Origin: Clostridia bacterium | Lineage (GTDB): Bacteria > Bacillota > Clostridia > CAKSNL01 > HGM11501 | Assembly (NCBI GenBank): GCA_017411325.1 | Contig: JAFQQJ010000015.1 | Span: 1-64,000 of the forward strand | DNA length: 64,000 nt | Direction: 5' to 3' | Shown: piece after piece, positions 1,490 through 43,105 of the stretch | How positions within the stretch are numbered: the first letter of the stretch is position 1 | How the letters are laid out: each line of letters opens with the position of its first letter | The notes under the pieces: generated by a model | What the model saw: the letters and a program-made list of their open reading frames with translations, nothing else | The model's database searches: none | Told to the model about the DNA's origin: nothing | Program-made: the position numbers and the translations under genes

Positions 1490-4162
1490 ATGAAATTTGC
1501 TAAAAGCTTTTTGGGAATCCTTCTGGCACTTACGTTGATTCCGAATGAGGTATTTGCGGCGGATAAAGCCTACAACGTGGAAGAAAGTGCTTCGCTTGGA
1601 AATAACGTTTCGATAAGAGACGGCGCAGCTTCTTTCGGAATTGAAGAAAGCGTTTTTACAATAAAAGGCGTTAACCTTACGGGAATAAACTCCGTTTCGG
1701 TGGAGGCGCTTTGTGATAAGGTAGGCGGAAACGGCGACCTTTTACTTATAAGGCTTGACAGCGAAAAAGGTAAGGTTATCGGAAGAATTGACCTTAATGT
1801 AGGGACGGACTTTAATTACTTTACCGGAGCCATTGAAAAAACGGAGGGTACGCACGATGTGTATTTTATGAGCCTTCTTTCTGCAAACTCCACAAAAGTT
1901 AAGTCTGTTACCTTTAAGGAAGCGGAATATAAGTATGTTTACGAGCCCATACCTTCTGATAAGATAATTGATAAGCACGAGACCACCTGGGCGCTTACTG
2001 ATTCCCTTGGCAGAAAAATGGCAGACTATGAAGAGGTTGGCGCGCTTAAAGACGGAAAAGATGTAGGTATATTCTACTGGACGTGGCATAAGCTTTCGGG
2101 AGAAGCAACACCTGTAAACAATACAGAATTTATGAAGAAACATCCCGATGCAAAGTACGACTATAATCACCCTTCCTGGCCTACGGGCAAAGTGGTACAC
2201 TACTGGAACGAACCGCTTTTCGGTTATTATACCGCGGAGGACTACTGGGTTATGCGTAAGCACGCCCTTATGCTTGGAAATGCCGGAGTTGATGTGATGT
2301 TTTTCGACTGTACCAACGGAAAGGCAACCTTCAGAGCATCATCTGAGGTGCTTTTTAAAGCACTGCGAGATGCAATGAACGATGGTAATAAGGTGCCTAA
2401 AATCGGCTATGTAAGTAATTTTGCAGCAACAAATCCCGATGCGAAGTATAACATTTTATCCACATATTTCGGAACCTATCACGACGGAAAATATTCTGAC
2501 CTCTGGTATATGGTGGACGGAAAGCCTTTGATAATTGCCCATCCCGATCAGCTTAAGGCAGAGGGAGATGTGGAGCTGTCCAAAATTATGGATGAGGTTA
2601 AGAGTTTCTTTACTTTCCGACTTCCTCAGCCTGACCATACGGAAAAAATCAGAAAGGATAACGAGTGGGGCTGGCTCAGAACCTACGGAAATACATTTTC
2701 CAAGGAAAGAGCGGACGGAAGCTTTGAGGCTGTAAACGTGGGTGTTTCTGTTAACCGTTCCTATGAAACAGGAAAAATCGATGCGATGAACACTCCCCAT
2801 GTTATGGGAAGAGGTTATATGGAAACTCTTGGAGACGACCATAGCGCAGGCGCTCACAAGTACGGATATTTCTTCCGTGAACAGCTTTCTGCAGCACTTT
2901 CAAACGATGTGGATTTGATGCTTGTAACAGGCTGGAATGAATGGACGGTTGTCCGTCACATCGAATGGAACACAACTAAAAATGCATTCCCGGATCAGTA
3001 CGATGATAAGGCGAGTCGTGATATGGAACCTACAAAGGGCGAGCTTAAGGACATTTACTATTGTCTTTTAGTTGATGCGGTAAGACGCTTCAAGGGGGCA
3101 GAGCCCTTAAAGGCGGCGGGTGCAGAAGCTACTATTGATATCAACGACCTTAATGCATGGAATGGCATTACTGACGAGTATTTCGGCGACAGAGGTACAT
3201 ACGAAAGAAACAGTACAGGTCTTGGAAATGTGGTTTATAAAAATGATACTATGCGAAACAACCCTGTTTATATGAAGGTTGCAAGGGATTCTTCCTTTAT
3301 GTACTTTATGGCGGAAGCTGAAAGCACTCTTAAGGGCGAAGGCGACGAGGGATTTATGAACCTCTACATAAACTCCGACAGGCTTTACTATACCGGATGG
3401 GAAGGCTATGACTATGTGCTTTCAAACGGAAAGGTTTATGCACTTACATCTGACGGAAGCAGAGCAGAAAAGAGCGCATACGAATATAAGGTTATGGATA
3501 AAACCATTGTTATAAAGACAGACAGAGCACTTCTTAATCTTTCCGGCGCTCTTAATTTTGAATTCAAGTGGGTTGATAACTGTGTATCAAACGACATTCT
3601 TGATTTCTATGTAAACGGAAATGTTGCACCCATGGGACGCTTTAACTATGTATATAAAGAATCGGGTGACAATGCTCCCACCGCTGATGAAAGAGCAGCC
3701 CTTAAGGGAACTGCGATTGTTAAGCCCGGAAGCACAAAGATGCTTGTTTCGGGAGGAAAATCAAACCTTTCTGAGACAAATCCTCTTCTTATGTGCAAGG
3801 AAATAGGAGGAACGGCGTATATTCCTTATGATGCGCTTAATAAGATTTTAGGCTTTGGACTGACAAAAGTAAATTATGAGCATTTCTATAATATTTTATT
3901 TATCTACACCTCGGACTCTGACGGAAAAACGGTTAAAGAATTCAAGTGGGCAGGCACAACTCTCGGAACCAACGAGGTAAGAGTAAACGGAGTATTAAAG
4001 CCCCTCACAAATCCCGTAATAGCTGATAACGGTACTGTTTATGTTCCGCTTACTTTGCTTTCTGATTGCTTCGGAAAAACTGTAGCAAAAACCGAGGGCG
4101 GTCTTTATGTGATTAACGGAGATGCCGCTTCGGCAGATACATATTTAGTATATTTTAACTGA
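1490..4162 (+). CDS. Secreted GH99/GH71-like putative glycosidase with CBM6-like, CBM9-like and stalk domains (A1)
   Basis: 890 residues. A signal peptide (1-23, ending VFA) is followed by a CBM6-like domain (~25-155), a TIM-barrel-like catalytic region (~165-520), a CBM9-like domain (~535-735) and a degenerate two-lobed copper-amine-oxidase-N-like stalk domain (~740-885). Residues shared with the four paralogues and likely to line an active site are E241 (WNEP), D273 (DCTN), E484 (GWNEW) and D511/E513 (SRDMEP). I recognise this layout from secreted Bacillota proteins of unproved activity, most like GH99/GH71 folds. Start ATG follows AAAGGTGGAG. It heads an operon with B1 (11-nt gap), a GH43-like gene and GH78, so the substrate is probably a rhamnose- or arabinose/galactose-containing plant glycan (inference). 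Confidence 0.8.
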   Translation: MKFAKSFLGILLALTLIPNEVFAADKAYNVEESASLGNNVSIRDGAASFGIEESVFTIKGVNLTGINSVSVEALCDKVGGNGDLLLIRLDSEKGKVIGRIDLNVGTDFNYFTGAIEKTEGTHDVYFMSLLSANSTKVKSVTFKEAEYKYVYEPIPSDKIIDKHETTWALTDSLGRKMADYEEVGALKDGKDVGIFYWTWHKLSGEATPVNNTEFMKKHPDAKYDYNHPSWPTGKVVHYWNEPLFGYYTAEDYWVMRKHALMLGNAGVDVMFFDCTNGKATFRASSEVLFKALRDAMNDGNKVPKIGYVSNFAATNPDAKYNILSTYFGTYHDGKYSDLWYMVDGKPLIIAHPDQLKAEGDVELSKIMDEVKSFFTFRLPQPDHTEKIRKDNEWGWLRTYGNTFSKERADGSFEAVNVGVSVNRSYETGKIDAMNTPHVMGRGYMETLGDDHSAGAHKYGYFFREQLSAALSNDVDLMLVTGWNEWTVVRHIEWNTTKNAFPDQYDDKASRDMEPTKGELKDIYYCLLVDAVRRFKGAEPLKAAGAEATIDINDLNAWNGITDEYFGDRGTYERNSTGLGNVVYKNDTMRNNPVYMKVARDSSFMYFMAEAESTLKGEGDEGFMNLYINSDRLYYTGWEGYDYVLSNGKVYALTSDGSRAEKSAYEYKVMDKTIVIKTDRALLNLSGALNFEFKWVDNCVSNDILDFYVNGNVAPMGRFNYVYKESGDNAPTADERAALKGTAIVKPGSTKMLVSGGKSNLSETNPLLMCKEIGGTAYIPYDALNKILGFGLTKVNYEHFYNILFIYTSDSDGKTVKEFKWAGTTLGTNEVRVNGVLKPLTNPVIADNGTVYVPLTLLSDCFGKTVAKTEGGLYVINGDAASADTYLVYFN

Positions 4163-4173: not shown

Positions 4174-6600
4174 ATGATGAAAAAAATATTTTCTTTGATA
4201 TTAATTTCTGCTCTTTTGTTTACATCCTTTAATTTTGCTTTTGCAGAAGATACAAACGTGATAGAAAAAAACGCCTCCTGGAAGATTTCTGCAAGCACGG
4301 AAATGAATGCGGCGTTTTCCGTTGACAAGGCTTTTGACGGAAACGATGCTACGCTCTGGCACTCTTTATATACCGTGGTTGACGGTGGTGCAGTTCCTTC
4401 CGAGATTCCCAGCTCCATAACGGTTGATTTCGGAAAAGAAGAAACAGTTTCGGGCTTTACCTATGTAAGAAGAAAGGACAATCCGTCAGGACTTTTCACA
4501 AGCTTTGAGGTGTTTTCATCAAACGACGGAGTAAACTTTACATCTATTTATAAAGGCACCTTTGATTTCGGCTCCGACAGAAGCGATATGAGCGACAAAA
4601 CCGCATCCTGGGGTAACAGGAAAATGCGTGCGATAAGAATTCTCTTTACGGGTAGAGGCGTTGCGACAGCGGCTGAAATAAAGTTTCTCCGTGAGGGAAA
4701 GGCGGACGGTAATGCCGTTACAGAAACAGTAACAAAAAAGCCTGCACCGTCAGGCGGAGAAACGAAAATTCTTGAAAAGACCGGTGCCTGGCAGATTTCT
4801 GCAAGTACTGAAATGAATGCAAATCTTTCTGCAGACAAAGCCTTTGACGGAAATGATGCAACAATCTGGCACTCTTTATATACCGTGGTTGACGGGGGCG
4901 CAGTTCCTTCCGAAATTCCAAGCTCCATAACGGTTGATTTCGGAAAAGAGGAAACGGTTTCGGGCTTTACCTATGTAAGAAGAAAAGACAATCCTTCGGG
5001 ACTTTTTACAAGCTTTGAAGTATTTGCGTCAAGCGACGGAGTAAACTTTGCATCTATTTATAATGGAACCTTTGATTTCGGCTCCGACAGAAGCGATATG
5101 AGCGACAAAACCGCATCCTGGGGCAATAAGAAGATGCGAGCAATACGAATTCTCTTTACGGGAAGAGGAGTTGCGACGGCGGCAGAAATAAAGTTTCTTA
5201 CAGGCGGTGCGGCAGTTATAGAGGCGCAGCCTGAAGTAAAAAAGGCATCAAACGGCGCGGCTTTACTTGAAAGAAGCACGTGGATCATTACGGCAGATTC
5301 CGAAATAAAAAGTGTGCCGATAACGAATGTGCTTGACGGCGATAAAAACACCTTCTGGCATTCTTTCTACACCGCAACGGGCGGAAGCGTAACAAGCCAG
5401 GATGTGCCTCCCTTTACAATTGAAATTGACTTAAAGAAAAAGGAAAAGATTTCGGGCCTCATCTTTACTCCAAGAGACAGCAAAGCGGGAATCATCACGA
5501 AGTTTGATCTTTATGCATCCGTTGACGGAGGCGAATACAAAAAGCTTTTAGAGGATAAGGTGCTTCTTGATAATACCGACGAAAAGGAAGTAATTTTCAA
5601 AAATAATGTAGAGGCTGATAAATTAAAAATTGTTGTTACGGAAGGTACCTCCAAGTACGGAACCCTTGCCGAGCTTAATGTGGCAGGCGAAAACAAAAAT
5701 GCACCGACAATAAGCTTTGAAGAGTTCTTCTCGGAGGACAGCCTGGAGCGAATGGTTGCAATTGATAAAACCGATATTACAGTTAATTGCGAAGCACCCT
5801 TCTGGGCAAGCTTTAAGCCCGGCAATATAATTGACGGAAACACAAATACCTTCTGGCAGACAGACGCGGGAAGCGACTTTGTTTTAAGCATTGATTTTAA
5901 CAAGGTTGAAAAGTTTGGCGAAATTGAATATATTCCGAGAAACACCGCGGACTTCCATGGCTTCTGGCTTGATTTTGATATAGCCGTAAGTGTGGATGGA
6001 GAATACTGGGAAACAGTGGCAGAGCATTATACCCTTGAAAAAAATCTCGGAGTCAATAAAATTACCCTGGATAAAGAGGTTGAAGCAAGATACGTTGAAA
6101 TTATCTTTAACGAAACCGTTGAAAGAAGAGTTTCCTGCGCAGAGCTTACCTTCTATCAGACCATCGCAGCAAAGAAACAGATGGCTGAAAAGAATAAGGA
6201 AAGCTATACTTTAACCATAGGAAGCAACATAATTGAGGTTTACAAAAACGGCGAAAGCTATAAAAAGGAAATTGACGTTGCACCTTATATCGTAAACGGC
6301 TCCACACTTATTCCTTTAAGAGGACTTATGGAAGAAATGGGGGCAACCGTTGACTGGGCAGGTCACAATCAGATGATATACATAGACAACGGCGTTTACT
6401 ATATTGAAATGCAGATATGGAACAAAATTGTTTACGTGGAAAGTCAGAGCTATGGAAGAGTCCGCTATGCGCTTCTTAATTTCCCGGTTATAAAGGATTC
6501 GAGAACCTTTATTCCGGTAAGATTCGTATCCGAACAGCTTGGCTATGATGTTACATGGGTGGCAGAAGAACAAAAGATTATAATTACAAAAGCAGCGTGA
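4174..6600 (+). CDS. Secreted multi-discoidin (F5/8C) protein with C-terminal stalk domain (B1)
   Basis: 808 residues. A signal peptide (1-24, ending FAFA) precedes four F5/8 type C-like jelly rolls at ~29-172, 199-342, 361-505 and 520-668. Each shows a DG(N/D)xxT(L/F)WHS/WQT core and a Y(V)(P)RR/PR strand. The C-terminal copper-amine-oxidase-N-like domain (~678-808) carries the twin signatures NGSTLIPLRGLMEEMG and DSRTFIPVRFVSEQLG. The first two discoidin domains come from a 510-bp internal duplication that is still highly similar in DNA. No catalytic motif is visible, so a glycan-binding role is likely. ATG at 4174 (or the next codon) follows GAGGGAGG, which overlaps the A1 stop, suggesting coupled translation. 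Confidence 0.85.
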   Translation: MMKKIFSLILISALLFTSFNFAFAEDTNVIEKNASWKISASTEMNAAFSVDKAFDGNDATLWHSLYTVVDGGAVPSEIPSSITVDFGKEETVSGFTYVRRKDNPSGLFTSFEVFSSNDGVNFTSIYKGTFDFGSDRSDMSDKTASWGNRKMRAIRILFTGRGVATAAEIKFLREGKADGNAVTETVTKKPAPSGGETKILEKTGAWQISASTEMNANLSADKAFDGNDATIWHSLYTVVDGGAVPSEIPSSITVDFGKEETVSGFTYVRRKDNPSGLFTSFEVFASSDGVNFASIYNGTFDFGSDRSDMSDKTASWGNKKMRAIRILFTGRGVATAAEIKFLTGGAAVIEAQPEVKKASNGAALLERSTWIITADSEIKSVPITNVLDGDKNTFWHSFYTATGGSVTSQDVPPFTIEIDLKKKEKISGLIFTPRDSKAGIITKFDLYASVDGGEYKKLLEDKVLLDNTDEKEVIFKNNVEADKLKIVVTEGTSKYGTLAELNVAGENKNAPTISFEEFFSEDSLERMVAIDKTDITVNCEAPFWASFKPGNIIDGNTNTFWQTDAGSDFVLSIDFNKVEKFGEIEYIPRNTADFHGFWLDFDIAVSVDGEYWETVAEHYTLEKNLGVNKITLDKEVEARYVEIIFNETVERRVSCAELTFYQTIAAKKQMAEKNKESYTLTIGSNIIEVYKNGESYKKEIDVAPYIVNGSTLIPLRGLMEEMGATVDWAGHNQMIYIDNGVYYIEMQIWNKIVYVESQSYGRVRYALLNFPVIKDSRTFIPVRFVSEQLGYDVTWVAEEQKIIITKAA
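4261..5208 (+). repeat. 510-bp internal direct duplication in B1
   Basis: The stretch around 4351-4670 recurs at 4861-5180 with a period of exactly 510 bp (170 codons), including long identical runs such as TTTATATACCGTGGTTGACG. It duplicates one discoidin domain plus its linker. Outer limits are approximate. Confidence 0.85.
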
Positions 6601-6613: not shown

Positions 6614-8062
6614 ATGACAACACCTTTATATAAAAAGAAAAGCTATTGTAACCCCTTGTCACTTCCTGAGCTTCCGCTCGGGGATAACTACGGGGCAGAA
6701 CCTATGAAGTATACGGGAGAGCCTTCCCTTGACTTCAGATCGATATCAGACCCCAGTGTGTTATATTATGACAACAAATGGTTTCTGTATCCAAGCTACG
6801 GAATGTGCTATGTGTCTGAGGATTTTACAAACTTTAAGCACGTTCGTACGGAGCCTTACAATATCGGCTACTCTCCGTCGGTTATACCTCACAGAGATAA
6901 GTTTTTGCTTACCGCTCATTCAAACGGCCTCTTTATAGGTGACAGTCCTACCGGCCCTTTTACCTTTGTAGATGACTTTATCAAGGTTGACGGAAGTAAA
7001 ATCCGCCCCATCGATTCGGCACTTTTCAGAGACGATGACGGAAGGATATATATTTACTGGTTTGAACAGACCATTCCCGATGAGCGCGGACGCTTTATTG
7101 CAAGAACAATGGGTGTTGAGCTTGATGGGGATGATCCGAGAAAATTTAAGACAGAGCCTGTATTGATTCATAAGTTCAATCCCGACCACTACTGGGAGAG
7201 AGGCGGAGCATATAATCAGAACTATGAAAGCGGATGGGTTGAAGGACAGTGGATGATGAAGCACAACGGAAGATATTATATGATATATTCTTCTTCCGGT
7301 ACGGAGTTCCCCAACTATTCCATGGCGGCATACTATTCTGACGAAGGTCCCCTTACCGGCTTTAAGTGCCAGAAGCACAATCCTATCTGCCGTCACGACC
7401 ACGGAATTGTAAGCGGCGCAGGCCATGGCTGCATCGAACACGGCCCCGATAATACTCTCTGGGCGTTTTATACAATAACGGCACCGGCGCTTCATCCCTT
7501 TGAGAGAAGAATCGGTATGGATCAGGTGTTTGTTGATGAAAACGGCGAGCTTTACTGTAATGTTACGGATACGCCTCAGCTCGGTTACGGTGAGACTCCC
7601 GGAAACAGCGATGCAGGGCTTCTTCCTGTAAATGCAAGGCTGAGACACAGAGTGAGAGCTTCAAGCTATGCAAGCGGAAGAAACGGCTTTTATGCAATGG
7701 ATGAAAGTATGCTTACCTGGTGGCAGCCTGAAGAAAACGACAGTGAGCCCTGCCTTTGTATGGATCTTACCGCAGACTATACCTGCGAGGCTGTTAGAAT
7801 CGTATGGCGCGATATAAACATGGATGTGAAAAACGGAATAGTTCCCGGCCCCTATAAGTATGTTGTTGAACAGCGTCTCACAGTAGGCTCCGGTGAATGG
7901 GAGACCGTTCTTGATATGAGCGGTAATACCGAGGACAGAAATATTGACTACAAGACATTTCCTCCCGCTTTATGCCGTGAGGTACGCCTTCGTATTACGG
8001 AATGGCCCAAGGGAATCACTCCCGGTGTTGTAAGCTTTGCGATTTTCGGAAAGATGAAATAA
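6614..8062 (+). CDS. GH43-family-like beta-propeller glycosidase with C-terminal beta-sandwich, cytoplasmic
   Basis: 482 residues without a signal peptide. The N-terminal ~330 residues fit a five-bladed GH43-type propeller. Candidate catalytic acids are D46 (ISDPSV), D134 (PIDSALF) and E210 (WVEGQW), matching the base, pKa-modulating and acid residues of GH43. Blades repeat motifs such as NGRYYMIYSS and DNTLWAFYT. Residues ~345-482 look like an F5/8C-type sandwich (ASSY, TWWQPE, VRLRITEWP). Family members release arabinose, xylose or galactose from plant glycans; the subfamily cannot be set by eye. ATG at 6614 is 13 nt after B1 and follows GAAGGA, so it belongs to the A1 operon. Confidence 0.85.
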   Translation: MTTPLYKKKSYCNPLSLPELPLGDNYGAEPMKYTGEPSLDFRSISDPSVLYYDNKWFLYPSYGMCYVSEDFTNFKHVRTEPYNIGYSPSVIPHRDKFLLTAHSNGLFIGDSPTGPFTFVDDFIKVDGSKIRPIDSALFRDDDGRIYIYWFEQTIPDERGRFIARTMGVELDGDDPRKFKTEPVLIHKFNPDHYWERGGAYNQNYESGWVEGQWMMKHNGRYYMIYSSSGTEFPNYSMAAYYSDEGPLTGFKCQKHNPICRHDHGIVSGAGHGCIEHGPDNTLWAFYTITAPALHPFERRIGMDQVFVDENGELYCNVTDTPQLGYGETPGNSDAGLLPVNARLRHRVRASSYASGRNGFYAMDESMLTWWQPEENDSEPCLCMDLTADYTCEAVRIVWRDINMDVKNGIVPGPYKYVVEQRLTVGSGEWETVLDMSGNTEDRNIDYKTFPPALCREVRLRITEWPKGITPGVVSFAIFGKMK

Positions 8063-8071
8063 GAGGTGCCT

Positions 8072-10276
8072 ATGTTAAAAGATGCAAAATGGATAAAGGC
8101 GCCTTGCGACATTGATGACGGATGCTTTATATTCAGCCGTGATTTTACTTTTGATAAGAAGGTTGAAAAAGCAACTCTTTATGTAACGGCTCTGGGGCTT
8201 TACAGGGCATACTTAAACGGAAAAGAGCTTAACTTAAGTCTTTTTACTCCGGGCTTTACCTCATATGATAAAAGAATTCAGTATCAGGAATATGATGTGA
8301 CGGAGTCAATAGGTAAAAATAACAGCCTTCTTATAGAAGCTGCCGAGGGCTGGGCTGTGGGTAATATGACGATTCTTCCCGGCAAAAAGCACCGCTATTC
8401 TGACCATATTAAGGTTATTTATTCTCTTGAAATCACATTTTCCGACGGAAGCAGGGAATGCATAAACTCAGGCTGTGAAACAACGGTTACAACAAGCAAT
8501 GTTATTTCTTCCTCCATATACGACGGTGAAACCGTTGATATGACCGCTGAAATAAAGCCTCTTGGCAATGCTGTTCCCACAGAGTATGAAACGAAGCTTG
8601 TCCCTGATGAAGGAGAGCGGGTTTCGGAGCACGAAGTATTTTACCCCTCTGAGCTTATAATAACGCCGAAGGGTGAAAGGGTAATCGACTTCGGACAAAA
8701 TCTTGCGGGTTATGTTGAAATTTCAGTTTCAGGAAAAAGGGGAGACCGCATAACCTTGAGTCATGCGGAAATCCTTGATCCCGAGGGAAACTTTTACACC
8801 GATAATTTAAGAAGCGCAAAAGCCGTAAATGCCTATGTGCTGGCGGGCAAAGATAAAGAAGTATTTAAGCCTAAATACTCCTGGCAGGGGTTCAGGTATA
8901 TAAGGCTTGACGAATATCCCTTTGAAGAGGTGGATTTATCCTGCTTTAAGGCTGTTGCGGTTTATTCTGATATCAGAAGAATTTCCGATTTTTCCTGTGG
9001 TAATGAAAAAATTAATCAGCTTTACAGGAATATAATTTGGGGACAGAAGGGGAACTTTCTTGATATTCCTACGGATTGTCCACAGAGAGATGAGCGAATG
9101 GGATGGACGGGTGATGCACAGATTTTCGTCCGTACAGCAGCAATAAATTTCGACGTTGAAAGGTTTTTTAAAAAATGGCTCTCTGACCTTGCAGAAAACC
9201 AATATGAAGACGGGTCGGTTCCGCTTTTTGTGCCCGATTGCAGACTGGCATTTCCAAAGGAAAAGGTTTCATCGGCCTGGGGGGATGCGGCAACAATTTG
9301 CCCCTGGGAAATATTTATGGCATATGGAAACAAGGAAATCCTTGAAAGGCAGTTTGACTCAATGAAAAAATGGGTGGACTACATAACCAAAACAACAGAG
9401 AAAGAATTTTTGTGGTTTGGCGGAAAGCAGATGGGAGACTGGCTTGCTCTTGATACGGAAGAGTCAAAGATAAGCAATAATCCGGTTTCGGGAAGAACAC
9501 CCCGCGAGTTTATTGCATCGGCTTTTTATGCTAAAAGCACGGAAATTCTGGTTAACTCCGGTAAAATTCTTGGAAAAGATATGTCAGAGTACGAAGCTTT
9601 ATATAAAAACATCGTTAAAGCCTTTAAGGAAACCTTTATGAAGGACGGATTTCCCGTTGAGGATACTCAGACAGCCTATGCAATGGCACTTTACTTTAAC
9701 CTTTGTGATGATAAGAAAAAGGTGGCAGCCGAGCTTTCAAGAATGGTCCGGGCCAACGGAAACCGCCTTACAACAGGATTCGTAGGAACGCCTTATCTTC
9801 TTCACGCACTTTCGGAAAACGGCGAAGCGGAAACGGCTTATGACCTTCTTTTTCAGGAAGGCTTCCCGTCGTGGCTCTATTCTGTAAACAGAGGTGCGAC
9901 AACCATGTGGGAGCACTGGGACGGAGTGAAGGAAGACGGGACTTTCTGGGACAAGGTGATGAATTCGTATAATCACTATGCCTATGGTGCGGTTGGGGAC
10001 TGGATTTTCGGTGCTGCGGCAGGCATCAGGAGCCTTCCTGACGGAGCGGGCTATAAGCATATAGAAATAAAGCCCTGTACAGATAAAAGGATGGGTTATG
10101 TTAAATATACTATGGAAACCCGTATGGGTAAGCTTTCAAGCCATTGGTATTACGATTTGGAAGGAAACGTTCATTTTGAGTTTGAAATTCCCGAAAAGTC
10201 AACGGCAGATATAATTTTGCCTGACGGAAGAAATTACAGTGTGAATGGTGGAAAATACAGTTTTATATGCAAATAA
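8072..10276 (+). CDS. GH78-family alpha-L-rhamnosidase, cytoplasmic
   Basis: 734 residues. N-terminal beta-sandwich domains (~1-310) include the rhamnosidase signatures LNGKELN and FGQNLAGYVEI. They are followed by an (alpha/alpha)6 barrel with the hallmark CPQRDERMGWTGD (D340, E341) and TTMWEHWD (E614), the acidic residues expected for inverting GH78 catalysis. A C-terminal beta domain ends the protein. There is no signal peptide, so it should act on imported oligosaccharides or glycosides, releasing L-rhamnose. An upstream GTG at 8066 overlaps the AGAGG site, so ATG at 8072 is preferred. It is last in the A1 operon, and a new promoter follows at once. It is somewhat shorter than the usual 850-1000 residues. 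Confidence 0.93.
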   Translation: MLKDAKWIKAPCDIDDGCFIFSRDFTFDKKVEKATLYVTALGLYRAYLNGKELNLSLFTPGFTSYDKRIQYQEYDVTESIGKNNSLLIEAAEGWAVGNMTILPGKKHRYSDHIKVIYSLEITFSDGSRECINSGCETTVTTSNVISSSIYDGETVDMTAEIKPLGNAVPTEYETKLVPDEGERVSEHEVFYPSELIITPKGERVIDFGQNLAGYVEISVSGKRGDRITLSHAEILDPEGNFYTDNLRSAKAVNAYVLAGKDKEVFKPKYSWQGFRYIRLDEYPFEEVDLSCFKAVAVYSDIRRISDFSCGNEKINQLYRNIIWGQKGNFLDIPTDCPQRDERMGWTGDAQIFVRTAAINFDVERFFKKWLSDLAENQYEDGSVPLFVPDCRLAFPKEKVSSAWGDAATICPWEIFMAYGNKEILERQFDSMKKWVDYITKTTEKEFLWFGGKQMGDWLALDTEESKISNNPVSGRTPREFIASAFYAKSTEILVNSGKILGKDMSEYEALYKNIVKAFKETFMKDGFPVEDTQTAYAMALYFNLCDDKKKVAAELSRMVRANGNRLTTGFVGTPYLLHALSENGEAETAYDLLFQEGFPSWLYSVNRGATTMWEHWDGVKEDGTFWDKVMNSYNHYAYGAVGDWIFGAAAGIRSLPDGAGYKHIEIKPCTDKRMGYVKYTMETRMGKLSSHWYYDLEGNVHFEFEIPEKSTADIILPDGRNYSVNGGKYSFICK

Positions 10277-10969: not shown

Positions 10970-10998
10970 TTGACAAACAATCGAAAGGGTGATATACT
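10970..10998 (+). promoter_or_regulatory. Promoter of the GH20 gene
   Basis: TTGACA (10970-10975), a 17-bp spacer and TATACT (10993-10998) lie 28 bp before the start codon. Confidence 0.85.
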
Positions 10999-11026
10999 TT
11001 TTGTATCATTTGAGAGAGGGGATTTT

Positions 11027-18582: not shown

Positions 18583-18598
18583 TTTTATCACCTGTTAC

Positions 18599-18692: not shown

Positions 18693-18713
18693 TGAATAGA
18701 AGGAGTGATTTAT

Positions 18714-21074: not shown

Positions 21075-21087
21075 GGAGGCACCGGGG

Positions 21088-27593: not shown

Positions 27594-27646
27594 GAAAAAT
27601 GCGGAACGAGCACGGATGCTATAATGCTATACAAGGGAGGGAACTT

Positions 27647-34210: not shown

Positions 34211-34239
34211 TTGACATATAATTTAATATATGGTAGAAT
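34211..34239 (+). promoter_or_regulatory. Promoter of the second GH43-like gene
   Basis: TTGACA (34211-34216), 17-bp spacer, TAGAAT (34234-34239), three bases after the hairpin. No operator-like repeat is seen. Confidence 0.8.
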
Positions 34240-34267
34240 TCAAGAAATAAGAAAAGGAGGAAACAAA

Positions 34268-35347
34268 ATGGAAAAATACAATAGCTTCAGACCGGGAGAA
34301 GTGTGGCTTGATACAAACGGAAACAGAATTCAGGCACACGGCGGTTCTGTAATGTTCATTGACGGAACATATTATTTTTACGGCGAAAACAAAGAAAAGA
34401 CCGACGGCAAAAACGGAATATGGCATTGGGGCGTAAGATGCTACAGTTCCAAGGATTTATACAACTGGGAAGACCTTGGAATTATAATTCCTCCCGATTT
34501 GGAGGACGAAAATTCGCCTCTTCATCCCACAGCCTGCATGGACAGACCGCACATCATCTACAACAAAGAAACAAAAAAATATGTGTGCTGGCTTAAGATT
34601 ATGCAAAAGGACGGAACGCAGTCGGAAACCGTTCTTACAGCGGATAAAATCACAGGCCCCTATGAAATCGTAAAGAAGGGGCTTCGTCCTCTCGGAATGA
34701 GTGCGGGAGACTTTGACCTGGTTGTAGCTCCCGACGGAAAAGGCTATTACTATTTTGAGAGAGTGCACAGCGAAACAATCTGCGCAGACCTGACAAGCGA
34801 TTACACCGATGTTACGGGCTATTATTCAACCCATTTTCCGCATCCTCATCCGCCTTATGTAAGAGAGGCAACAGCTCATTTTACCCGTAATTACAAGCAC
34901 TATCTTGTAACCTCGGGAACAACAGGCTATTATCCCAATCCTTCCGAGGTTGCGATTGCAGACACCTACCACGGTCCATTCACGGTGCTTGGAAATCCTC
35001 ATCCGGATGACGAAACAAACACAAGCTTCCATTCGCAGATTTCATCCGTATTCAAGGTAGAGGGTAAGAAGGATTTATACATTGCCTGCGCTGACAGATG
35101 GCTTCCCGGATATATGGATATTCCGTATGAGCAATATGAAGAAATGTTTAATCTTTTATTCTCCGACGAAAGAAATTCAGAGCGTTGCCACGAGCTTCTT
35201 GCCAAGCACAGAGAAGTTGTTGAAAAAACAATGGATGCAAACTATGTATGGCTTCCGTTAAGATTTGTTGAGCCGTCGGAAGAACATCCCCACGGGATGG
35301 TTTATATCGACTGGTACGACGAATGGAAATGGGAAGACTGGGAATAA
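34268..35347 (+). CDS. GH43-family-like beta-propeller glycosidase, cytoplasmic
   Basis: 359 residues with no signal peptide. It opens WLDTNGNRIQAHGGSVMF and YYFYGENKE, then MDRPHIIYN and GDFDLVVAPDGKGYYYFE, the blade pattern of GH43 members related to exo-beta-1,3-galactanases and similar enzymes (GH43_24/34-like by memory). The final WLPLRFVEPS and DWYDEWKWEDW are typical of such C termini. The substrate is not certain. ATG at 34268 follows AAAGGAGG; the longer frame from 34211 starts inside the promoter. It is monocistronic, ending at a strong terminator, next to a GH2 gene. A galactan-type target would fit the GH2 and GH78 neighbours. Confidence 0.82.
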   Translation: MEKYNSFRPGEVWLDTNGNRIQAHGGSVMFIDGTYYFYGENKEKTDGKNGIWHWGVRCYSSKDLYNWEDLGIIIPPDLEDENSPLHPTACMDRPHIIYNKETKKYVCWLKIMQKDGTQSETVLTADKITGPYEIVKKGLRPLGMSAGDFDLVVAPDGKGYYYFERVHSETICADLTSDYTDVTGYYSTHFPHPHPPYVREATAHFTRNYKHYLVTSGTTGYYPNPSEVAIADTYHGPFTVLGNPHPDDETNTSFHSQISSVFKVEGKKDLYIACADRWLPGYMDIPYEQYEEMFNLLFSDERNSERCHELLAKHREVVEKTMDANYVWLPLRFVEPSEEHPHGMVYIDWYDEWKWEDWE

Positions 35348-35356: not shown

Positions 35357-35391
35357 AAAGAGGTCGGATTTTTGAAAATCCGGCCTCTTTT
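35357..35391 (+). terminator. Terminator after the second GH43-like gene
   Basis: Arms AAAGAGGTCGGATTTT and AAAATCCGGCCTCTTT pair with one G-U and a tight loop, ending in TTTT. Confidence 0.9.
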
Positions 35392-35395
35392 ATGC

Positions 35396-35427
35396 ACAAA
35401 AGCATTTTTGAAATATGAACAAAAGCA
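35396..35427 (+). promoter_or_regulatory. Possible direct-repeat operator of the GH2 gene
   Basis: ACAAAAGCA occurs at 35396-35404 and 35419-35427, 23 bp apart, ~30 bp upstream of the GH2 -35. It is short, so only a weak case. Confidence 0.35.
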
Positions 35428-35456
35428 CTCACTTTTCGAATTCGGGGAAAAAATGC

Positions 35457-35484
35457 TTGAAAAATACTGCGGATGTGATAAAAT
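35457..35484 (+). promoter_or_regulatory. Promoter of the GH2 gene
   Basis: TTGAAA (35457-35462), 16-bp spacer and TAAAAT (35479-35484) with a TGTGA extension before the -10. Confidence 0.6.
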
Positions 35485-35512
35485 TATTATAACAGGAAAT
35501 GAGGTGCATATA

Positions 35513-37846
35513 ATGCGAGAAACAATACTTTTCAATGATGACTGGCGTTTCCACGAAGGTGATATTGATACATCTATACCGAACAAGAAAGGTCCTTTAT
35601 ATATCAGCTCCAAAACCGAGAGAGCAAAGTGGGGACCTGCTTCTATATATTACAAAGATGCGCCAGACGACTACTCTACAACAACGGAGCTTAACAATCG
35701 TGATGCATGGGATAACGTAACACTTCCGCACGACTATGTTATACTTCACACGCCGGATGAAAAGGAAAATAATACTCTTGGCTATCTTCCGTACAACAAC
35801 GCCTGGTACAGAAAGCATTTTGTTTTCGCTGAAGATGACAGAGGGAAAAGATTCGTTTTGCATTTTGACGGAGTGGCAACCAATGCAACCGTTTATTTTA
35901 ACGGCAGCTTGATGAAGCATAATTTCTGTGGCTATACTCCTTTTGATGTTGATATAACCGATTATATCCGATTCGGACAGGATAATGTAATTGCGGTTTA
36001 TGTAAATACCGAAAATCACGAGGGCTGGTGGTATGAAGGCGGTGGTATTTACCGGGATGTTTTTCTTATTAAAACAAATCGTGTGGCAATTGATACATAT
36101 GGCGTTTATGTGTACCCTGAAAAGAAAAACGACGATAAGTGGGATGTAAACATCGAAACCACCGTTGCTAACGAAGACTATGAAGATGTTTCTGTAAAGC
36201 TTGTTAGTAATATTTGTGATAAAGATGGAAATGTAGTTGCAAAAGCTTTGGGAGAAGTTTTTGTTCCCACAAAGGATACGGCAACCGCTGTCTATAAAAC
36301 CGAAATAGAAAACCCTGTTCTCTGGGATTTGGATAATCCTTATCAGTACAAGATAATTACAGAGGTTATAAAAGATGGCAAAGTAATCGACACATACGAA
36401 ACAAAAACCGGATTCAGAACCTTTAAGGCGGATCCAAATGAAGGATTTTTCTTGAATGATAAATATGTGAAAATCAAGGGCGTTTGTGCCCATTCCGATT
36501 GCGGTCTTACAGGTAAAGCGGTTGCGGACAATGTTAACAGATATAAAGCGGAGCTTCTTAAGGAAATGGGAGCTAACGGCTACAGAACAAGTCATTATCC
36601 GCAGAATCCGGCTATGATGGATGCACTTGATGACCTGGGCTTCATCGTTATGGCTGAAACGAGATGGTTCGACTCTACCGACGAAGGAAAGGAACAGCTT
36701 CGTACACTCATTAAAAGAGACAGAAACCGCCCGTCAATTTTCTTCTGGTCAATGGGTAACGAGGAGCCTTTCTTTGTAAATGAGCAGGGCAAAAATATTG
36801 CAAAGGCATTAAAAAGAGAAGTTAATAAGCTTGATAAAACAAGACTTGTTATGACTGCGGTTGACAGAACGCCCGAAAAGGCGACGGTTTATTCCGAGCT
36901 TGATGCGGTAGGTGTAAACTATAACCTTCAGTCATATGACATACTGCACGAAACATATCCCGATATACCGGTATTTTCATCGGAATGTTGCGCAACCGGC
37001 TCCACAAGAGGCTGGTATTATGACGATTGTCCCGATAAAGGATATATTTCTGCATATGACAAGGCGACTAATAACTGGTTTTTAGGGAGAGAGCAGACCT
37101 GGAAGTTTATGTGCGAAAGAAAGTGGCTTCTCGGCAGCTTCCAGTGGGCAGGTTTTGAACACAGAGGCGAAACCGTATGGCCCCGTCTTTGCTCACAGTC
37201 GGGAGCGATTGATTTATTCCTTCAGAAAAAGGATGCCTTCTATCAGAATCAGTCCCATTGGTCGGATAGGCCTATGATACATATGCTTCCGCATTGGAAC
37301 TTGAAAACAACATTCCCGGGAGAGGATGTATTGGTATGGGCATACACCAACTGCGAAGAAGCGGAGCTTATATTAAACGGTAAAAGCTTTGGAAAAGTTG
37401 CCGTTGAAAAATACGGTCACGCCCAGTGGTTTGTTCCTTATGAAGAGGGAAAAATCGAAGTTATAGGATATATCGGCGGCAAGGAGGTTTGCCGTGACGG
37501 TCACGAAACCACAAAAGCTCCCGCTAAATTAAAGCTTCGTCTTGATAACAAGATTACAGGATCGGGCAGAGATGTGGCAATAATAACCTGCTATACCGAG
37601 GATGAAGACGGACTCTTTGTTCCCGATGCATCACCGTTTGTAGACTTTCATACAAACGCCAAAGGCAGAATTATCGGTACGGGAAGTGATATTTCTGACC
37701 ATAATCCGGTTACGGAGAAGAGCCGCAGGATGAGAGAAGGCCTTATCACTGTTGCGGTGGCTGTAAAGGGCGGAACAGGAAAGCTTTCCGTTTACGCAAA
37801 AGCCGAAGGGCTTACCCCTGCAAGACTTGACATCGAAATTGAATAA
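35513..37846 (+). CDS. GH2-family glycoside hydrolase (beta-galactosidase-like), cytoplasmic
   Basis: 777 residues with no signal peptide. It has the GH2 order: jelly-roll sugar-binding domain (~1-190, FNDDWRFHEGD, VTLPHDYV, GVATNATVYFNG), Ig-like domain (~200-300) and TIM barrel (~305-590). The acid/base is E417 in SMGNEEP and the nucleophile E491 in FSSECC. C-terminal Ig-like domains (NCEEAELILNGKSFGK) follow. GH2 covers beta-galactosidase, glucuronidase, mannosidase and other activities; the barrel does not settle which. ATG at 35513 is preferred, following AATGAGGTG; an earlier frame start has no ribosome site. It is monocistronic with its own promoter and terminator. Confidence 0.9.
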   Translation: MRETILFNDDWRFHEGDIDTSIPNKKGPLYISSKTERAKWGPASIYYKDAPDDYSTTTELNNRDAWDNVTLPHDYVILHTPDEKENNTLGYLPYNNAWYRKHFVFAEDDRGKRFVLHFDGVATNATVYFNGSLMKHNFCGYTPFDVDITDYIRFGQDNVIAVYVNTENHEGWWYEGGGIYRDVFLIKTNRVAIDTYGVYVYPEKKNDDKWDVNIETTVANEDYEDVSVKLVSNICDKDGNVVAKALGEVFVPTKDTATAVYKTEIENPVLWDLDNPYQYKIITEVIKDGKVIDTYETKTGFRTFKADPNEGFFLNDKYVKIKGVCAHSDCGLTGKAVADNVNRYKAELLKEMGANGYRTSHYPQNPAMMDALDDLGFIVMAETRWFDSTDEGKEQLRTLIKRDRNRPSIFFWSMGNEEPFFVNEQGKNIAKALKREVNKLDKTRLVMTAVDRTPEKATVYSELDAVGVNYNLQSYDILHETYPDIPVFSSECCATGSTRGWYYDDCPDKGYISAYDKATNNWFLGREQTWKFMCERKWLLGSFQWAGFEHRGETVWPRLCSQSGAIDLFLQKKDAFYQNQSHWSDRPMIHMLPHWNLKTTFPGEDVLVWAYTNCEEAELILNGKSFGKVAVEKYGHAQWFVPYEEGKIEVIGYIGGKEVCRDGHETTKAPAKLKLRLDNKITGSGRDVAIITCYTEDEDGLFVPDASPFVDFHTNAKGRIIGTGSDISDHNPVTEKSRRMREGLITVAVAVKGGTGKLSVYAKAEGLTPARLDIEIE

Positions 37847-37993: not shown

Positions 37994-40753
37994 ATGAAAA
38001 AAATTGTATCAACCTTGCTCATTATATCTATGCTGGTATCCTTTTCTTTAGCAATTTCTGCGGAAACAGAAAAGGAATTAGATATACTTAAGCCTGACTT
38101 TAAAAATAATATTATGGTTTATGAAGATTGCATCAGATACAATACTAAAGACAGCTATTTCGGATTTAAGGCAGTTGACCTCACCGGAATAAAATCCATT
38201 GGAATCAGGGTGCTCAATACGTTTATAAGAGGCGCCGGAGAAAACGGAGATACTCTTGTTGTTAAGGCGGATGATCCGTTAAAAGGCGATGTGCTCGGAT
38301 ATATAGTCATGGCAGAAGCTGGAGAGCGCATTTTCAAAACATCAATCTTTGAAACGGAGGGCGTTCACGATTTATACTTTGTTTCGCTTTACGGAGAAAA
38401 CAGAGGAAATTCCAATATATATGAAATAAACTTATATAAAGATGAGTATGTTCAGGACAAATCCGCCTGTGTACCGGACTCATATATTAAAGACCTTTAT
38501 TCGGATACCTGGGCGGCAACAGATTCCTACGGAAGAAAGGTGGCAGACTATTGTGAAACCGGGGCTGTTAAAACCGACGGACGTGAAGTGGGAATTATGT
38601 ACTGGAACTGGTTTGTTGCAGATACTGCTAAATACCGCGGAAGGGTTATTTCAGACGTATTAAAGGAACACCCCGAAGCAAGAGACGATTATTACCACGA
38701 AGCCTGGGGGAAGAATAATAAATATTTCTGGACAGAGCCGGTGCTGGGATTTTACGATTCCTATGACTACTGGGTATACCGTAAGCACGCCGAAATGCTT
38801 GCAGTTGCAGGTGTCGATGTGATATTTACCGACTGTACAAATGCGGGATATACATTTACCGAGCCTCTTACAATTCTTGCAAAAGCTTTTCGTGATGCGA
38901 AAAGGACGGGAATTGATGTTCCGAAAATTTCGGTTATAGGCTCCCTTGGCCGCAGTAAATATGCATTTACCCAGCCTATGGCGATATATATGAATTTCTT
39001 TGTGGGAAACGATTATTCCGATATATGGTATTACCGCGACGGAAAGCCTATGATTTTTTCTACGGTATATAAAGCGGATACAAAGAAATATGCCAATGAA
39101 AAAGATACTGCACAGATGGATCTGGCGGAGGAAATACACGACTTTTTCACTTTCAGATATGCCGGGGCGTACAGAAACAGTAAGGTTGCTCCCAATGAAT
39201 GGTTCTGGCTTGAAGAATTTCCGCAGCAGCTTCGTAATCCCGATGAAACCGGACGGCCTGAAATGGTGGCGGTGGGATGCTCTATAAACACAACAGTCAA
39301 TGCGGCAATGGGCGTGGCTACAGCTGCATCCAATCCCTATGCAAAGGGCAGAAGCTTTTCCGAGGTATTCAACCGCGACTATTCTGCCGACAGCGCAAGA
39401 AAGGAATATTTCTTCCGTGAGCAGGCAGCGCTTGCTTTAGCGGCTGATCCTGAGTTTGTATTTATAGACGGATGGAACGAGCTTTCGGCAGAACGAAAGA
39501 GCGAATGGTACGGGCAAACCAACACCTTTGTGGATACCTTTGATGACGAAAACAGCCGTGATTTCGAGCCGTCAAGAGGCGCTCTGAAGGATGATTATTA
39601 TATGCTCCTTTGCGATTTTGTAAGAAAATTCAAGGGTGTTCGCCCTGCACCTGTTGCAAGCGGAATGAAAGCTATAGATATTAACGGTGAGCTTTCACAG
39701 TGGAGCGAAGTTGGGCCTGAATTTTTAAATGCAAATCAGGATTACGAAAGAGATTCTGTAGGTTATGCAAAAGCAGGTACGGATTTAGAACCGAATATCT
39801 ATAAAACAACTGTAAACAATGCTGTAAAGAGTGCAAAGGTGTCTTTTGACAATGAAAATTTCTATTTCCTTGTATCCTGCGAAAAGGACATAAAGGAACA
39901 CGATAAAAGCTTTCTTAATCTCTATATAAACACAGACAGGATGTATAATACCGGGTGGGAAGGTTATGACTATGCCTTTAATGTATCCGGAAAAGGTGTA
40001 ATTTCAAAAAATGCAGGAAATGTATGGTGTTGGGAAAGTATCGGCAATGCAGAATACAGGATAACCGGAAATTCTATGGTGCTTTCTTTTCCGAGAAGCT
40101 TTATCGGAGAGACGGAAAAGGTAGATTTTGAATTTAAATGGACAGATTCTGTTTCAGCGGAAGACGACTTTATGAATTTCTATTCTGATGGCTCGGTTGC
40201 GCCCTATGGTCGCTTTAATTATCTCTATACAGAAAAAGAGCAGACAGCACTTACGGATTATGAAAGAATGATGCTGTCGGATACGGCAATTATAAAAGCC
40301 GGTGCAGAAAATATGATAGTTGCAGGCGGAAAAATGCCGGTTTACGAAAAGAACAGAAATGTACGTGCTTTTTCACAGAACGGAACACTTTATATCCCTG
40401 AAGATGCATTGTGCGAAGTGCTGGGCTACGGCAGAACAAAAACAGACTATAATTCATTCTACAATGTTTCGAGAACCTATCATTATGAGATGAACGACGA
40501 ACTGACAGAGGTAATTAATTATAAGTGGACATATACAACCCTCGGCACTAATGAAGCGAGGGTGGACGGAAAGCTTACCGGGCTTTCAAACCCCGTTATC
40601 TCAAGGGACGGAATTGTATTTATTCCCTTAAGCTTTATTGAAGAATGCTACGGATATGAAGTGAAGGCAATAGGAGAGGACGTTTATACCGTATGCACAA
40701 GGGGAACAGCACCGATTGATACGGTTATGAGTGTTTTGCATCACTTTGATTGA
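37994..40753 (+). CDS. Secreted GH99/GH71-like putative glycosidase (A5), divergent member
   Basis: 919 residues. Signal peptide (1-~24, ending ISA), CBM6-like domain (KAVDLTGIKSIGI, GVHDLYFVSL), barrel, CBM9-like domain (IDINGELSQWSEV; NLYINTDRMYNTGWEGYDY) and degenerate stalk. The catalytic-type acids remain: E in WTEPVLGFY, D in FTDCTN, E496 and SRDFEP. The near-invariant GWNEW is GWNEL here, the main departure from the other four. ATG at 37994 follows AGGAGGAG; the longer frame from 37865 runs through the terminator and operator. The gap to B5 is 36 nt rather than 11-13. Confidence 0.8.
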   Translation: MKKIVSTLLIISMLVSFSLAISAETEKELDILKPDFKNNIMVYEDCIRYNTKDSYFGFKAVDLTGIKSIGIRVLNTFIRGAGENGDTLVVKADDPLKGDVLGYIVMAEAGERIFKTSIFETEGVHDLYFVSLYGENRGNSNIYEINLYKDEYVQDKSACVPDSYIKDLYSDTWAATDSYGRKVADYCETGAVKTDGREVGIMYWNWFVADTAKYRGRVISDVLKEHPEARDDYYHEAWGKNNKYFWTEPVLGFYDSYDYWVYRKHAEMLAVAGVDVIFTDCTNAGYTFTEPLTILAKAFRDAKRTGIDVPKISVIGSLGRSKYAFTQPMAIYMNFFVGNDYSDIWYYRDGKPMIFSTVYKADTKKYANEKDTAQMDLAEEIHDFFTFRYAGAYRNSKVAPNEWFWLEEFPQQLRNPDETGRPEMVAVGCSINTTVNAAMGVATAASNPYAKGRSFSEVFNRDYSADSARKEYFFREQAALALAADPEFVFIDGWNELSAERKSEWYGQTNTFVDTFDDENSRDFEPSRGALKDDYYMLLCDFVRKFKGVRPAPVASGMKAIDINGELSQWSEVGPEFLNANQDYERDSVGYAKAGTDLEPNIYKTTVNNAVKSAKVSFDNENFYFLVSCEKDIKEHDKSFLNLYINTDRMYNTGWEGYDYAFNVSGKGVISKNAGNVWCWESIGNAEYRITGNSMVLSFPRSFIGETEKVDFEFKWTDSVSAEDDFMNFYSDGSVAPYGRFNYLYTEKEQTALTDYERMMLSDTAIIKAGAENMIVAGGKMPVYEKNRNVRAFSQNGTLYIPEDALCEVLGYGRTKTDYNSFYNVSRTYHYEMNDELTEVINYKWTYTTLGTNEARVDGKLTGLSNPVISRDGIVFIPLSFIEECYGYEVKAIGEDVYTVCTRGTAPIDTVMSVLHHFD

Positions 40754-40789: not shown

Positions 40790-43105
40790 TTGAAAAAGAG
40801 ACTTTTCAGCTTAATATCAGCACTGTTTATTGTTACCGGAAGTATTTTTGCAGCAGCTAATGATGTTGACTTTGTCAAAGTCGAAGGCAGCGGAGGATCT
40901 GTCGGATATTATTCTGATTTACAGGAAGCTTTTAATTCTGTTTCAGAGGGGGATACGGTTACTTTACTTAAGGACTATACCTTTAATTATACAGGAAAAA
41001 GCATAACAGGAATTGATTTTCCCGAAGTGAAGTTCACATTTGACGGCGGGGGATTCACAATAACTGATGCCTTTGACAGAAAGCTGCACGGAAATCATGA
41101 CGACAGAGGATCGTATAAAATCTCCGGCGGTGATGTAACCGTAAAAAACGTAACCTTCAGAATGGATAAGTCCATCACATCGGAGGATCAGGGGCATACA
41201 AACGGATGCTTTCTTGTTACAAACGGAACAGTCCGGCTTAATAATGTAACCATCACACATTATTACGGACATAACGGAAGTGCCTTCTGGGGACAGGGAA
41301 ACGGGAAAATAATCATAGAGGATAAAGTGACAGTTTCCGATTGTCACGCGAAAACGCGCGGAATTATCGGTCTTTACTTTCTCGATGCTGAAATTAACGG
41401 ACTTACCGTAGTTGGCGGAACGGGTGATGCCATAGTTGCAGGCCCTGTAGGAGCAAAGGTAGAGCTTAAGCTTTCGGACACATCCATAAGCGGGGTTACG
41501 GGAAGCGGAATTGTGGCAGGCGGAACCAAAAGTGAAGAAAAAACAACAGTTGTTAATATCAGCGAAGGTATAAAAATAACAAATTGCGAAGGCAGCGGAA
41601 TACATATTAATCCCGGTGCACAGGTAAAGGTGAGAGGGGAAGCTGATTTATCCGGAAACAAAGGCGGTAATGTAAAGATAACCGGAAGCGGTATTTTGGA
41701 CGCCGATCCTCCGATTGTTGCCGAGGGAGAAAAAATTGTTGCCGGTGAAATCTCAAAAGCAGGGTGGACTGTTTCTGCAACCTCTGAATTTGTTAAAAAT
41801 CCCGCTAAATATCTTATTGACAATGATACGAAAACCTTCTGGCATTCAAAGTATGATGAGATTGACGGAAAAGCGAAAAATATTGAGCCTGCACCGTATA
41901 CTCTTGATTTTACACTTCCTGAAGTTACAGACATTTCGGGATTCGCCCTCCTTTCAAGAAAGGATTCAAATTCAGGTGACCTTAAAAGCTATGATATTTT
42001 GGTATCGGATTCCGATGACGGGGAATTTTATGCTATAGCTAAAGATATTACGGTTCCTTCTTATATGTATGAAGCAAAGGGATATACAAAGGTTATAAAC
42101 CTTGTTGCAAATGTAAATGCAAAAAGAATAAGGCTTTATATAAAAGAGGGCTCGGTTGCGGCATTTGCGGAATTTTCCGTGATAAAAGGAGATGACGGTA
42201 TAGAAACAATGACGCCTGCGTCATACCTTGAGTATGCATCGCTGAACACTCCGCAGCTGATTCCTCCCGATAAGTTTAAGGTTTCGTGTGAAGAAGAAGC
42301 CTGGATGCAATTTACAATAGTAAAGGCGTTTGACGGAACAAATCAGTCAATGTGGCAGACGGAGGCTGTAGGCAGTCGCCCGGTTAATATCAGTATTGAC
42401 CTCGGAGAGGTTTACGAAATTGAAGAAATACATTATTTGCCAAGACTTACAGAGGATAAACACGGCCTTTGGCTTAAAGCAAATATATCTTATTCAACAG
42501 ATAAAACCGGCTATGAGAAAATTGAAAATTACACTTTCGAAGAAAATCTTGACGAGAAAATCATAAGCTTTGGAGAAGGGCGCAAAATGCGCTATGTCGA
42601 TATAGAAGTGACCGAATATGTTGCAAACAGAGTGTCGGCGTCGGAAATCAGCTTCTATGAAACAGGAAAAGGACATCGCGAAAGAATAGAAGAGAATAAA
42701 ACCACTTATACACTTACCATAGGCTCGGATGTAATAAAAATGACAAAAGGTAAGAACAATGCAATTTCGGAAAAGAAAATAGATGTTGCACCTTATATTG
42801 TAAACGGTTCCACATTTATTCCTTTAAGAGGACTTCTTGAGGAAATGGGTGCGGAAATCTCCTGGGATGGCGAAAGACAGCTTATTACCGTGAAAAACAA
42901 TGCACTCACCATTGAGCTTCAGATATGGAATAACACGGTTTGGGTAACAAATTCAAAGGTTGACGGCAGAATGATGTATTCTGTTCCGAATCCGCCCGTA
43001 ATAAGAGACAACCGTACTTTTGTGCCGGTAAGATTTCTTTCGGAGATTCTTGGGTATACCGTTTCCTGGGACGGTACTGCACAGACTGTTACCATAAAAA
43101 ATTAA
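40790..43105 (+). CDS. Secreted beta-helix plus discoidin plus stalk protein (B5)
   Basis: 771 residues. A signal peptide (1-~23) is followed not by the duplicated discoidins of B1-B4 but by a right-handed parallel beta-helix-like region (~25-305). It is seen as repeated rungs: GDTVTLLKDYTF, GGDVTVKNVTF, TVRLNNVTITHYYGHNG, GLTVVGGTGDAI, INPGAQVKVRGEADLSGN. Two F5/8C-like domains follow (~315-470, ~485-640), then the stalk domain (~650-771; GSTFIPLRGLLEEMG, DNRTFVPVRFLSEILG). Beta-helices of this type occur in pectate lyases and other polysaccharide-binding proteins; no lyase catalytic set is identified. The start is TTG at 40790 after AAAGGGTGA, weaker than in the other cassettes. Confidence 0.82.
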   Translation: MKKRLFSLISALFIVTGSIFAAANDVDFVKVEGSGGSVGYYSDLQEAFNSVSEGDTVTLLKDYTFNYTGKSITGIDFPEVKFTFDGGGFTITDAFDRKLHGNHDDRGSYKISGGDVTVKNVTFRMDKSITSEDQGHTNGCFLVTNGTVRLNNVTITHYYGHNGSAFWGQGNGKIIIEDKVTVSDCHAKTRGIIGLYFLDAEINGLTVVGGTGDAIVAGPVGAKVELKLSDTSISGVTGSGIVAGGTKSEEKTTVVNISEGIKITNCEGSGIHINPGAQVKVRGEADLSGNKGGNVKITGSGILDADPPIVAEGEKIVAGEISKAGWTVSATSEFVKNPAKYLIDNDTKTFWHSKYDEIDGKAKNIEPAPYTLDFTLPEVTDISGFALLSRKDSNSGDLKSYDILVSDSDDGEFYAIAKDITVPSYMYEAKGYTKVINLVANVNAKRIRLYIKEGSVAAFAEFSVIKGDDGIETMTPASYLEYASLNTPQLIPPDKFKVSCEEEAWMQFTIVKAFDGTNQSMWQTEAVGSRPVNISIDLGEVYEIEEIHYLPRLTEDKHGLWLKANISYSTDKTGYEKIENYTFEENLDEKIISFGEGRKMRYVDIEVTEYVANRVSASEISFYETGKGHRERIEENKTTYTLTIGSDVIKMTKGKNNAISEKKIDVAPYIVNGSTFIPLRGLLEEMGAEISWDGERQLITVKNNALTIELQIWNNTVWVTNSKVDGRMMYSVPNPPVIRDNRTFVPVRFLSEILGYTVSWDGTAQTVTIKN

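Follow-up and report, generated by a model that had tools for sequence, protein, structure and literature searches.

Do neighbouring copies of a two-gene unit record a local burst of duplication, or do they sample a wider system whose two products act together? The question is raised by the first 64,000 nt of contig JAFQQJ010000015.1 of a Clostridia bacterium (assembly GCA_017411325.1; this whole stretch is hereafter the window), where five genes of one kind (A1–A5) are each followed by a gene of another kind (B1–B5). A proteins carry an enzyme-like barrel, B proteins carry a chain of discoidin domains, and both end in a domain that we term the stalk. Paired-gene amplification for glycan capture is known as a trait of Bacteroidota. 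Our results show that the A–B pairing in this Gram-positive genome is real, genome-wide and maintained in evolution.

Pairing in the window and across the genome

All five cassettes claimed in the preliminary description are present, with the same gene order on one strand:

1490 to 4162, plus strand: A1, 890 aa; signal peptide, (CBM6-like domain), GH99/71-like barrel, CBM9-like domain and stalk
4174 to 6600, plus strand: B1, 808 aa; signal peptide, four discoidins and stalk (PF07833); 11 nt gap with GGAGG
12554 to 15313, plus strand: A2; open reading frame opens at 12515, likely start at 12554
15326 to 17794, plus strand: B2; four discoidins and stalk; 12 nt gap with AAGGAGG
22086 to 24824, plus strand: A3
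24836 to 27409, plus strand: B3; four discoidins and stalk; 11 nt gap with AAGGAGG
29012 to 31753, plus strand: A4; the A protein modelled with AlphaFold
31767 to 34169, plus strand: B4; open reading frame opens at 31713, GTG start at 31767; 13 nt gap with AAGGAGG
37994 to 40753, plus strand: A5; open reading frame opens at 37865, likely start at 37994
40790 to 43105, plus strand: B5; N-terminal part diverged, two discoidin matches at the Pfam level, stalk; 36 nt gap

With the B4 start corrected to the GTG at 31767, the A–B gaps measure 11, 12, 11, 13 and 36 nt. An (A)GGAGG-type ribosome site lies in the gaps of cassettes 1–4, as had been claimed for the four gaps of 11–13 nt, and the fifth gap has no strong site. 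The other window A proteins share 35–38% identity with A1 over ~900 aa, and the other window B proteins share 31–41% with B1.

The description of five paralogous cassettes at one locus was correct in number but too small in scope. Profiles made from the window A and B alignments were used to search the whole genome (2.94 Mb draft, 66 contigs, 97.8% complete, 5.1% contamination), which encodes a total of 46 full-length or near full-length A proteins (746–1581 bits), five of them in the window. A scripted check finds a B directly downstream on the same strand in all 46 cases. The gaps are mostly 9–18 nt, a ribosome site precedes the B start in 41 of 46, and the pairs cover 244,980 bp (8.3% of the genome). 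G+C content is uniform at 40–45%. The architecture of A is rigid, with the order signal peptide, CBM6, barrel, CBM9-like domain and stalk in 44 of 46 proteins, mostly of 880–960 aa. That of B is elastic: every B protein has a signal peptide, 2–6 discoidins, as detected by family hidden Markov models (HMMs), and a stalk, over lengths of 473–1732 aa.

Trees of A and B for the 46 paralogous pairs have 22 of 43 splits in common; when labels were shuffled 1000 times, the number averaged 0.2 and never exceeded 3. A larger set that includes 15 pairs from relatives gives 35 common splits of 58. This congruence, together with adjacency in other genomes (see below), supports the earlier proposal that the pair was retained through duplication and that A and B work together. 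The B tree contradicts 10 of the 31 well supported A splits, so partners or domains were occasionally exchanged. Within the window, A2 and A4 are sisters, A1, A3 and A5 are each closest to a copy on another contig, and the matching B proteins behave likewise. Three cassettes of the locus have their sisters on other contigs, which rules out a simple local tandem array as the origin of all five.

An AraC-family gene lies at most 1.6 kb upstream of 16 of the 46 pairs (2.2 expected); counting both sides, 23 pairs have one within this distance, and it is usually either upstream and divergent or right after B and convergent. Except for AraC, no conserved neighbourhood was found beyond A–B: the other neighbours vary and are often housekeeping genes, and no transporter recurs beside the other pairs genome-wide. 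In one natural fusion (G000:C30:59107; L027:3108-6770), an A is preceded by a B-type N-terminal part containing two discoidins, and its own short B still lies downstream. The same genome also encodes B-like discoidin–stalk proteins of ~1000 aa without an adjoining A (G000:C36:130164-132230, C4:26405-28465).

Folds, candidate active site and stalk

Pfam finds a CBM6-like domain in three of the five window A proteins (weakly), together with the stalk domain Cu_amine_oxidN1 (PF07833); in all five window B proteins it finds F5/8 type C (discoidin) domains (PF00754) above cut-off, in 2–4 copies, plus PF07833. The domain logic of the preliminary description is thus borne out by Pfam for the CBM6-like domain, stalks and discoidins, and by an AlphaFold model for the barrel, whereas the barrel and CBM9-like parts of the window A proteins have no Pfam match. 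Attempts to name the barrel by Pfam or NCBIfam yielded no family. No dockerin or cohesin, which are marks of the cellulosome, was found by Pfam in the A and B proteins of the window.

The A4 model, made from 61 aligned sequences, has a predicted local distance difference test score (pLDDT) of 93.6 and a predicted template modelling score (pTM) of 0.93. Foldseek matches its N-terminus to CBM6 (2v4v; TM-score by target 0.78) and its barrel to GH99 (4ad2 and 4ad0, endo-alpha-mannanase) and GH71 (9fnf), with a best E-value of about 2e-6 and TM-scores by target of 0.4–0.57. The modelled barrel is a (beta/alpha)8 barrel with a GH99/GH71-like fold. The Pfam GH99 family (PF16317) has no match in the window A proteins, and their relatives reach at most 27.0 bits against a cut-off of 33. 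In HMM alignments, which are weak but consistent over four GH99 sequences, the A-family motif G-W-N-E-W falls on S-F-N-E-W-H-E of GH99. The catalytic dyad at this place is E-x-x-E in GH99 and D-x-x-E in GH71 (PMC11025385, PMC12394665). The first acid is E in all 46 A proteins. The second is found in none, with A, T, V, S or N at its position, and the GH71 form D-x-x-E is also absent, the A motif being N-E-W-x-x without a second acid. This rules out assigning A to GH99 or GH71, and catalysis therefore needs other residues or may be lost. Like GH99 endo-alpha-mannosidases/mannanases and GH71 alpha-1,3-glucanases, A has the barrel fold and the first catalytic acid, but its identity to them is ~10–15% and it has extra CBM6, CBM9-like and stalk domains.

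Eight candidate active-site residues (E188, D280, N283, N494, E495, D513, R521 and D522) are invariant in all 46 A proteins, as are D532 and D540, and many of the candidates are invariant also in Bacteroidota and Planctomycetota homologues. Conservation of this kind suggests that the barrel has not decayed and still works as the active site of a distinct, unnamed family, which makes A a candidate new glycoside hydrolase family found in several phyla.

The B4 model is a chain of discoidins with a C-terminal stalk (pLDDT 84.5, pTM 0.43) and is confident for each domain, not for the domain arrangement. Among known structures, the discoidins of B match the sugar-binding CBM32 domains of sialidases, hyaluronidases and M60 peptidases. 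For the B stalk, the single sequence match in the PDB is 8IMD (weak, E 0.02), in which the PF07833 domain is the dimer interface of a Paenibacillus lautus superoxide dismutase (PMC10432803). The stalk is homologous to this domain, but the dismutase is a homodimer of one protein, whereas A and B are two proteins with one stalk each. In domain-by-domain distances, the A stalk tracks the three tested B domains best (Spearman 0.41, 0.44 and 0.50) and the A CBM6 tracks them least (0.18–0.26). The 8IMD interface and this co-variation point to a stalk-mediated association without proving it, and A and B are probably joined through their stalk domains. Partner docking would then be a possible role for the widespread but obscure PF07833 domain.

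Relatives, neighbouring genes and known systems

Adjacency of the two families recurs in other genomes, a check that the preliminary description had set. There are ~42 A genes in the sister species (JAUNRD) and ~14 in a further genus of the family (JAUZPY), and in both a B follows every A for which the contig allows the test. In a third genus (G002), one clear pair is accompanied by several core-only or long fusion-type proteins. Four proteins of this genus (L152–L155, ~1640 aa) carry the A barrel and CBM9-like part N-terminally, followed by ~1000 more residues; L152 matches no Pfam family except GH99, weakly.

In a class sample of 391 genomes, high-scoring A proteins that are complete from first to last domain occur in this family only. 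A related family of Clostridia, f29, has proteins of A-like architecture (CBM6, barrel, CBM9-like domain and stalk), and no B adjoins them in the four loci read. This suggests that the pairing arose after the A architecture. A pattern-based scan of 84,980 named species genomes, which may miss rare full-length relatives, gave only the two family members as best full-length matches among those listed. The other listed matches come from Clostridia, Bacteroidota, Planctomycetota and Kiritimatiellota and are limited to the barrel and CBM9-like part, and none of these core-only matches has a B-like protein next downstream.

The standalone A-core proteins, which occur in Bacteroidota, Planctomycetota, Kiritimatiellota and rumen Clostridia, share the barrel and CBM9-like part with A (31–37% identity to A4), but have no B partner, mostly no PF07833 stalk and few copies per locus. 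Outside the family, the core is often found in Bacteroidota SusC/SusD loci beside alpha-L-rhamnosidases: among 15 Bacteroidota loci with a standalone core, it adjoins TonB receptors in six, SusD in five, GH78 in five and GH106 in three. This company supports a glycan-degrading role and hints at rhamnose-containing glycans as the target; a GH78 gene also lies after B1 in the window. Core paralogues may also adjoin one another. A rumen Clostridia contig (L078:5701-17131) has four in tandem (880–1074 aa) without B, and loci of Dyadobacter, Larkinella and Sphingobacterium (L079, L099, L110, L111 and L118) have two, one typical and one diverged, which in L079, L099 and L110 lie downstream of a SusC/SusD-sized gene pair.

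The genes around the window cassettes are as follows:

486 to 1310, minus strand: AraC-family regulator, divergent from A1
6614 to 8062, plus strand: GH43 plus discoidin protein, after B1
8066 to 10276, plus strand: GH78 alpha-L-rhamnosidase
10335 to 10907, plus strand: RpiB/LacAB-type sugar isomerase
10970 to 12475, plus strand: GH20 family enzyme
17830 to 18591, minus strand: AraC-family regulator, convergent, immediately past B2
18705 to 20036, plus strand: GH20-like enzyme
21028 to 21951, plus strand: xylose-isomerase-like TIM barrel protein
34211 to 35347, plus strand: GH43-like enzyme, after B4
35372 to 37846, plus strand: GH2 family enzyme, before A5

This locus is atypical: its five pairs share it with GH43, GH78, GH20 and GH2 enzymes and sugar isomerases. 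No transporter family occurs among its genes of at least 150 aa (486–45079). A flagellin lysine-N-methylase (FliB, NCBIfam NF038110; 20076-21074) between cassettes 2 and 3 is odd among the glycan genes. A 438-aa protein between A3–B3 and A4–B4 (27599-28915) has no Pfam or NCBIfam match and by eye resembles a barrel-type glycosidase.

With a Gram-positive polysaccharide utilization locus (gpPUL; PMC5320581) the window shares polysaccharide-degrading enzymes and AraC regulators, but no transport system lies in the locus or consistently beside the other pairs, and the defining unit is the A–B pair; the lack of a transporter rules out this assignment. The SusC/SusD pairs of Bacteroidota polysaccharide utilization loci (PULs) are likewise obligate two-gene pairs, strongly amplified as a unit, glycan-related and often near a regulator. 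They differ in that the ten window A and B proteins show no TonB receptor or SusD fold in Pfam, A resembles an enzyme, B carries a chain of discoidins, neither has a transport function, the host is Gram-positive and most A–B pairs stand without other enzymes. The Bacteroidota analogy drawn earlier therefore holds for scale and pairing and fails for mechanism (no TonB receptor, SusD or associated transporter): A–B resembles SusC/SusD in pair amplification and is by definition neither SusC/SusD nor a gpPUL.

In agreement with the preliminary description, the literature searched, though not exhaustively, yielded no account of the A–B pair or of a Gram-positive system of this form. A–B looks like a seemingly undescribed Gram-positive way of scaling one surface module to many sugar chains, in which an uncultured family amplified a different pair independently and to a comparable extent. 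The 46 natural cognate pairs and their orthologues are material for studying the evolution of enzyme–binder pairing specificity.

Possible functions of the pairs

We consider it fairly probable that the pairs are a repertoire of extracellular enzyme–binder modules, with glycosidase A and multivalent binder B, for different glycans. Each cassette would be a two-gene operon for one glycan-degrading module. A would be a secreted glycosidase that belongs to an uncharacterised GH99/GH71-like family and brings CBM6 and CBM9-like modules of its own, and B a secreted multivalent binder whose 2–6 discoidin (CBM32-like) domains hold the substrate for A. The C-terminal PF07833 stalks would probably hold A and B together, or on the wall. 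Whole pairs may have been duplicated and then altered in the cleft of the enzyme and in how many binding domains they have and of which sequence, so that each of the 46 modules would suit a glycan of its own. An AraC-family regulator lies near about half of them, and transporters encoded elsewhere would take up the products. A more specific proposal is an undescribed Gram-positive surface system built on an obligate heterodimer, in which a glycosidase of a new family and its multi-CBM partner meet in a PF07833 handshake, with more than 40 specificities per genome. We advance it tentatively, at a little short of an even chance. If true, about one twelfth of the chromosome would be devoted to one kind of two-protein machine, a Gram-positive functional counterpart of SusC/SusD amplification.

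Several observations weigh against enzyme–binder modules held by their stalks: (i) the A stalk only weakly matches PF07833 (24–44 bits in window A against 97–109 bits in window B, with A3 at 23.9 bits, just under the cut-off of 24.2); (ii) its co-variation with B is confounded, since no other part of A lies so close to the B gene; (iii) as to retention at the surface, simple pattern tests find no SLH, LPXTG or C-terminal membrane segment in A or B and a lipobox in just one of the 92 proteins, and none of the 87 SLH matches in the genome falls in the window A and B proteins; (iv) elsewhere in the genome, glycosidase and transporter genes are absent next to most pairs; and (v) the second dyad acid is missing throughout.

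A and B could be functionally linked and co-expressed without touching, being secreted apart to meet on the substrate or the cell wall, the latter bound by the stalk. The occurrence of the same stalk on many unpaired proteins of this genome favours this reading, which we nevertheless regard as rather unlikely, given that the solved PF07833 domain dimerises (PMC10432803), that the A stalk co-varies with B and that a B-type N-terminus is naturally fused to A. Replacement of the second Glu of the D/ExxE dyad in every copy would also suit a non-hydrolytic A that acts as glycan receptor or sensor, with B as co-receptor. That is improbable, because the other putative active-site residues are invariant, even in standalone Bacteroidota PUL homologues beside GH78 and GH106, and decay would be expected to relax some copies.

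A variable repertoire of adhesins or surface antigens, unrelated to nutrition, would account for the large paralogous set, the 2–6 variable discoidins, the siting of most pairs away from catabolic genes and the many SLH surface proteins of the genome. We hold it to be very improbable, because every A has an enzyme barrel whose pocket residues are conserved, AraC regulators lie near half of the pairs and catabolic genes neighbour the pairs in the window. The 66-contig draft with 5.09% contamination might suggest a count inflated by several genomes binned as one. The likelihood of this is close to negligible: five pairs lie on the window contig and several each on other contigs, G+C content is uniform, and the sister species independently has ~42 A genes.

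Other large surface proteins are encoded in the same genome. A 1254-aa protein with InlB-type repeats and SLH domains lies in the window (49188-52952), and giant SLH or discoidin surface proteins of 2100–4900 aa occur on other contigs (G000:C37:60-64 kb, C63 and C14:156-166 kb).
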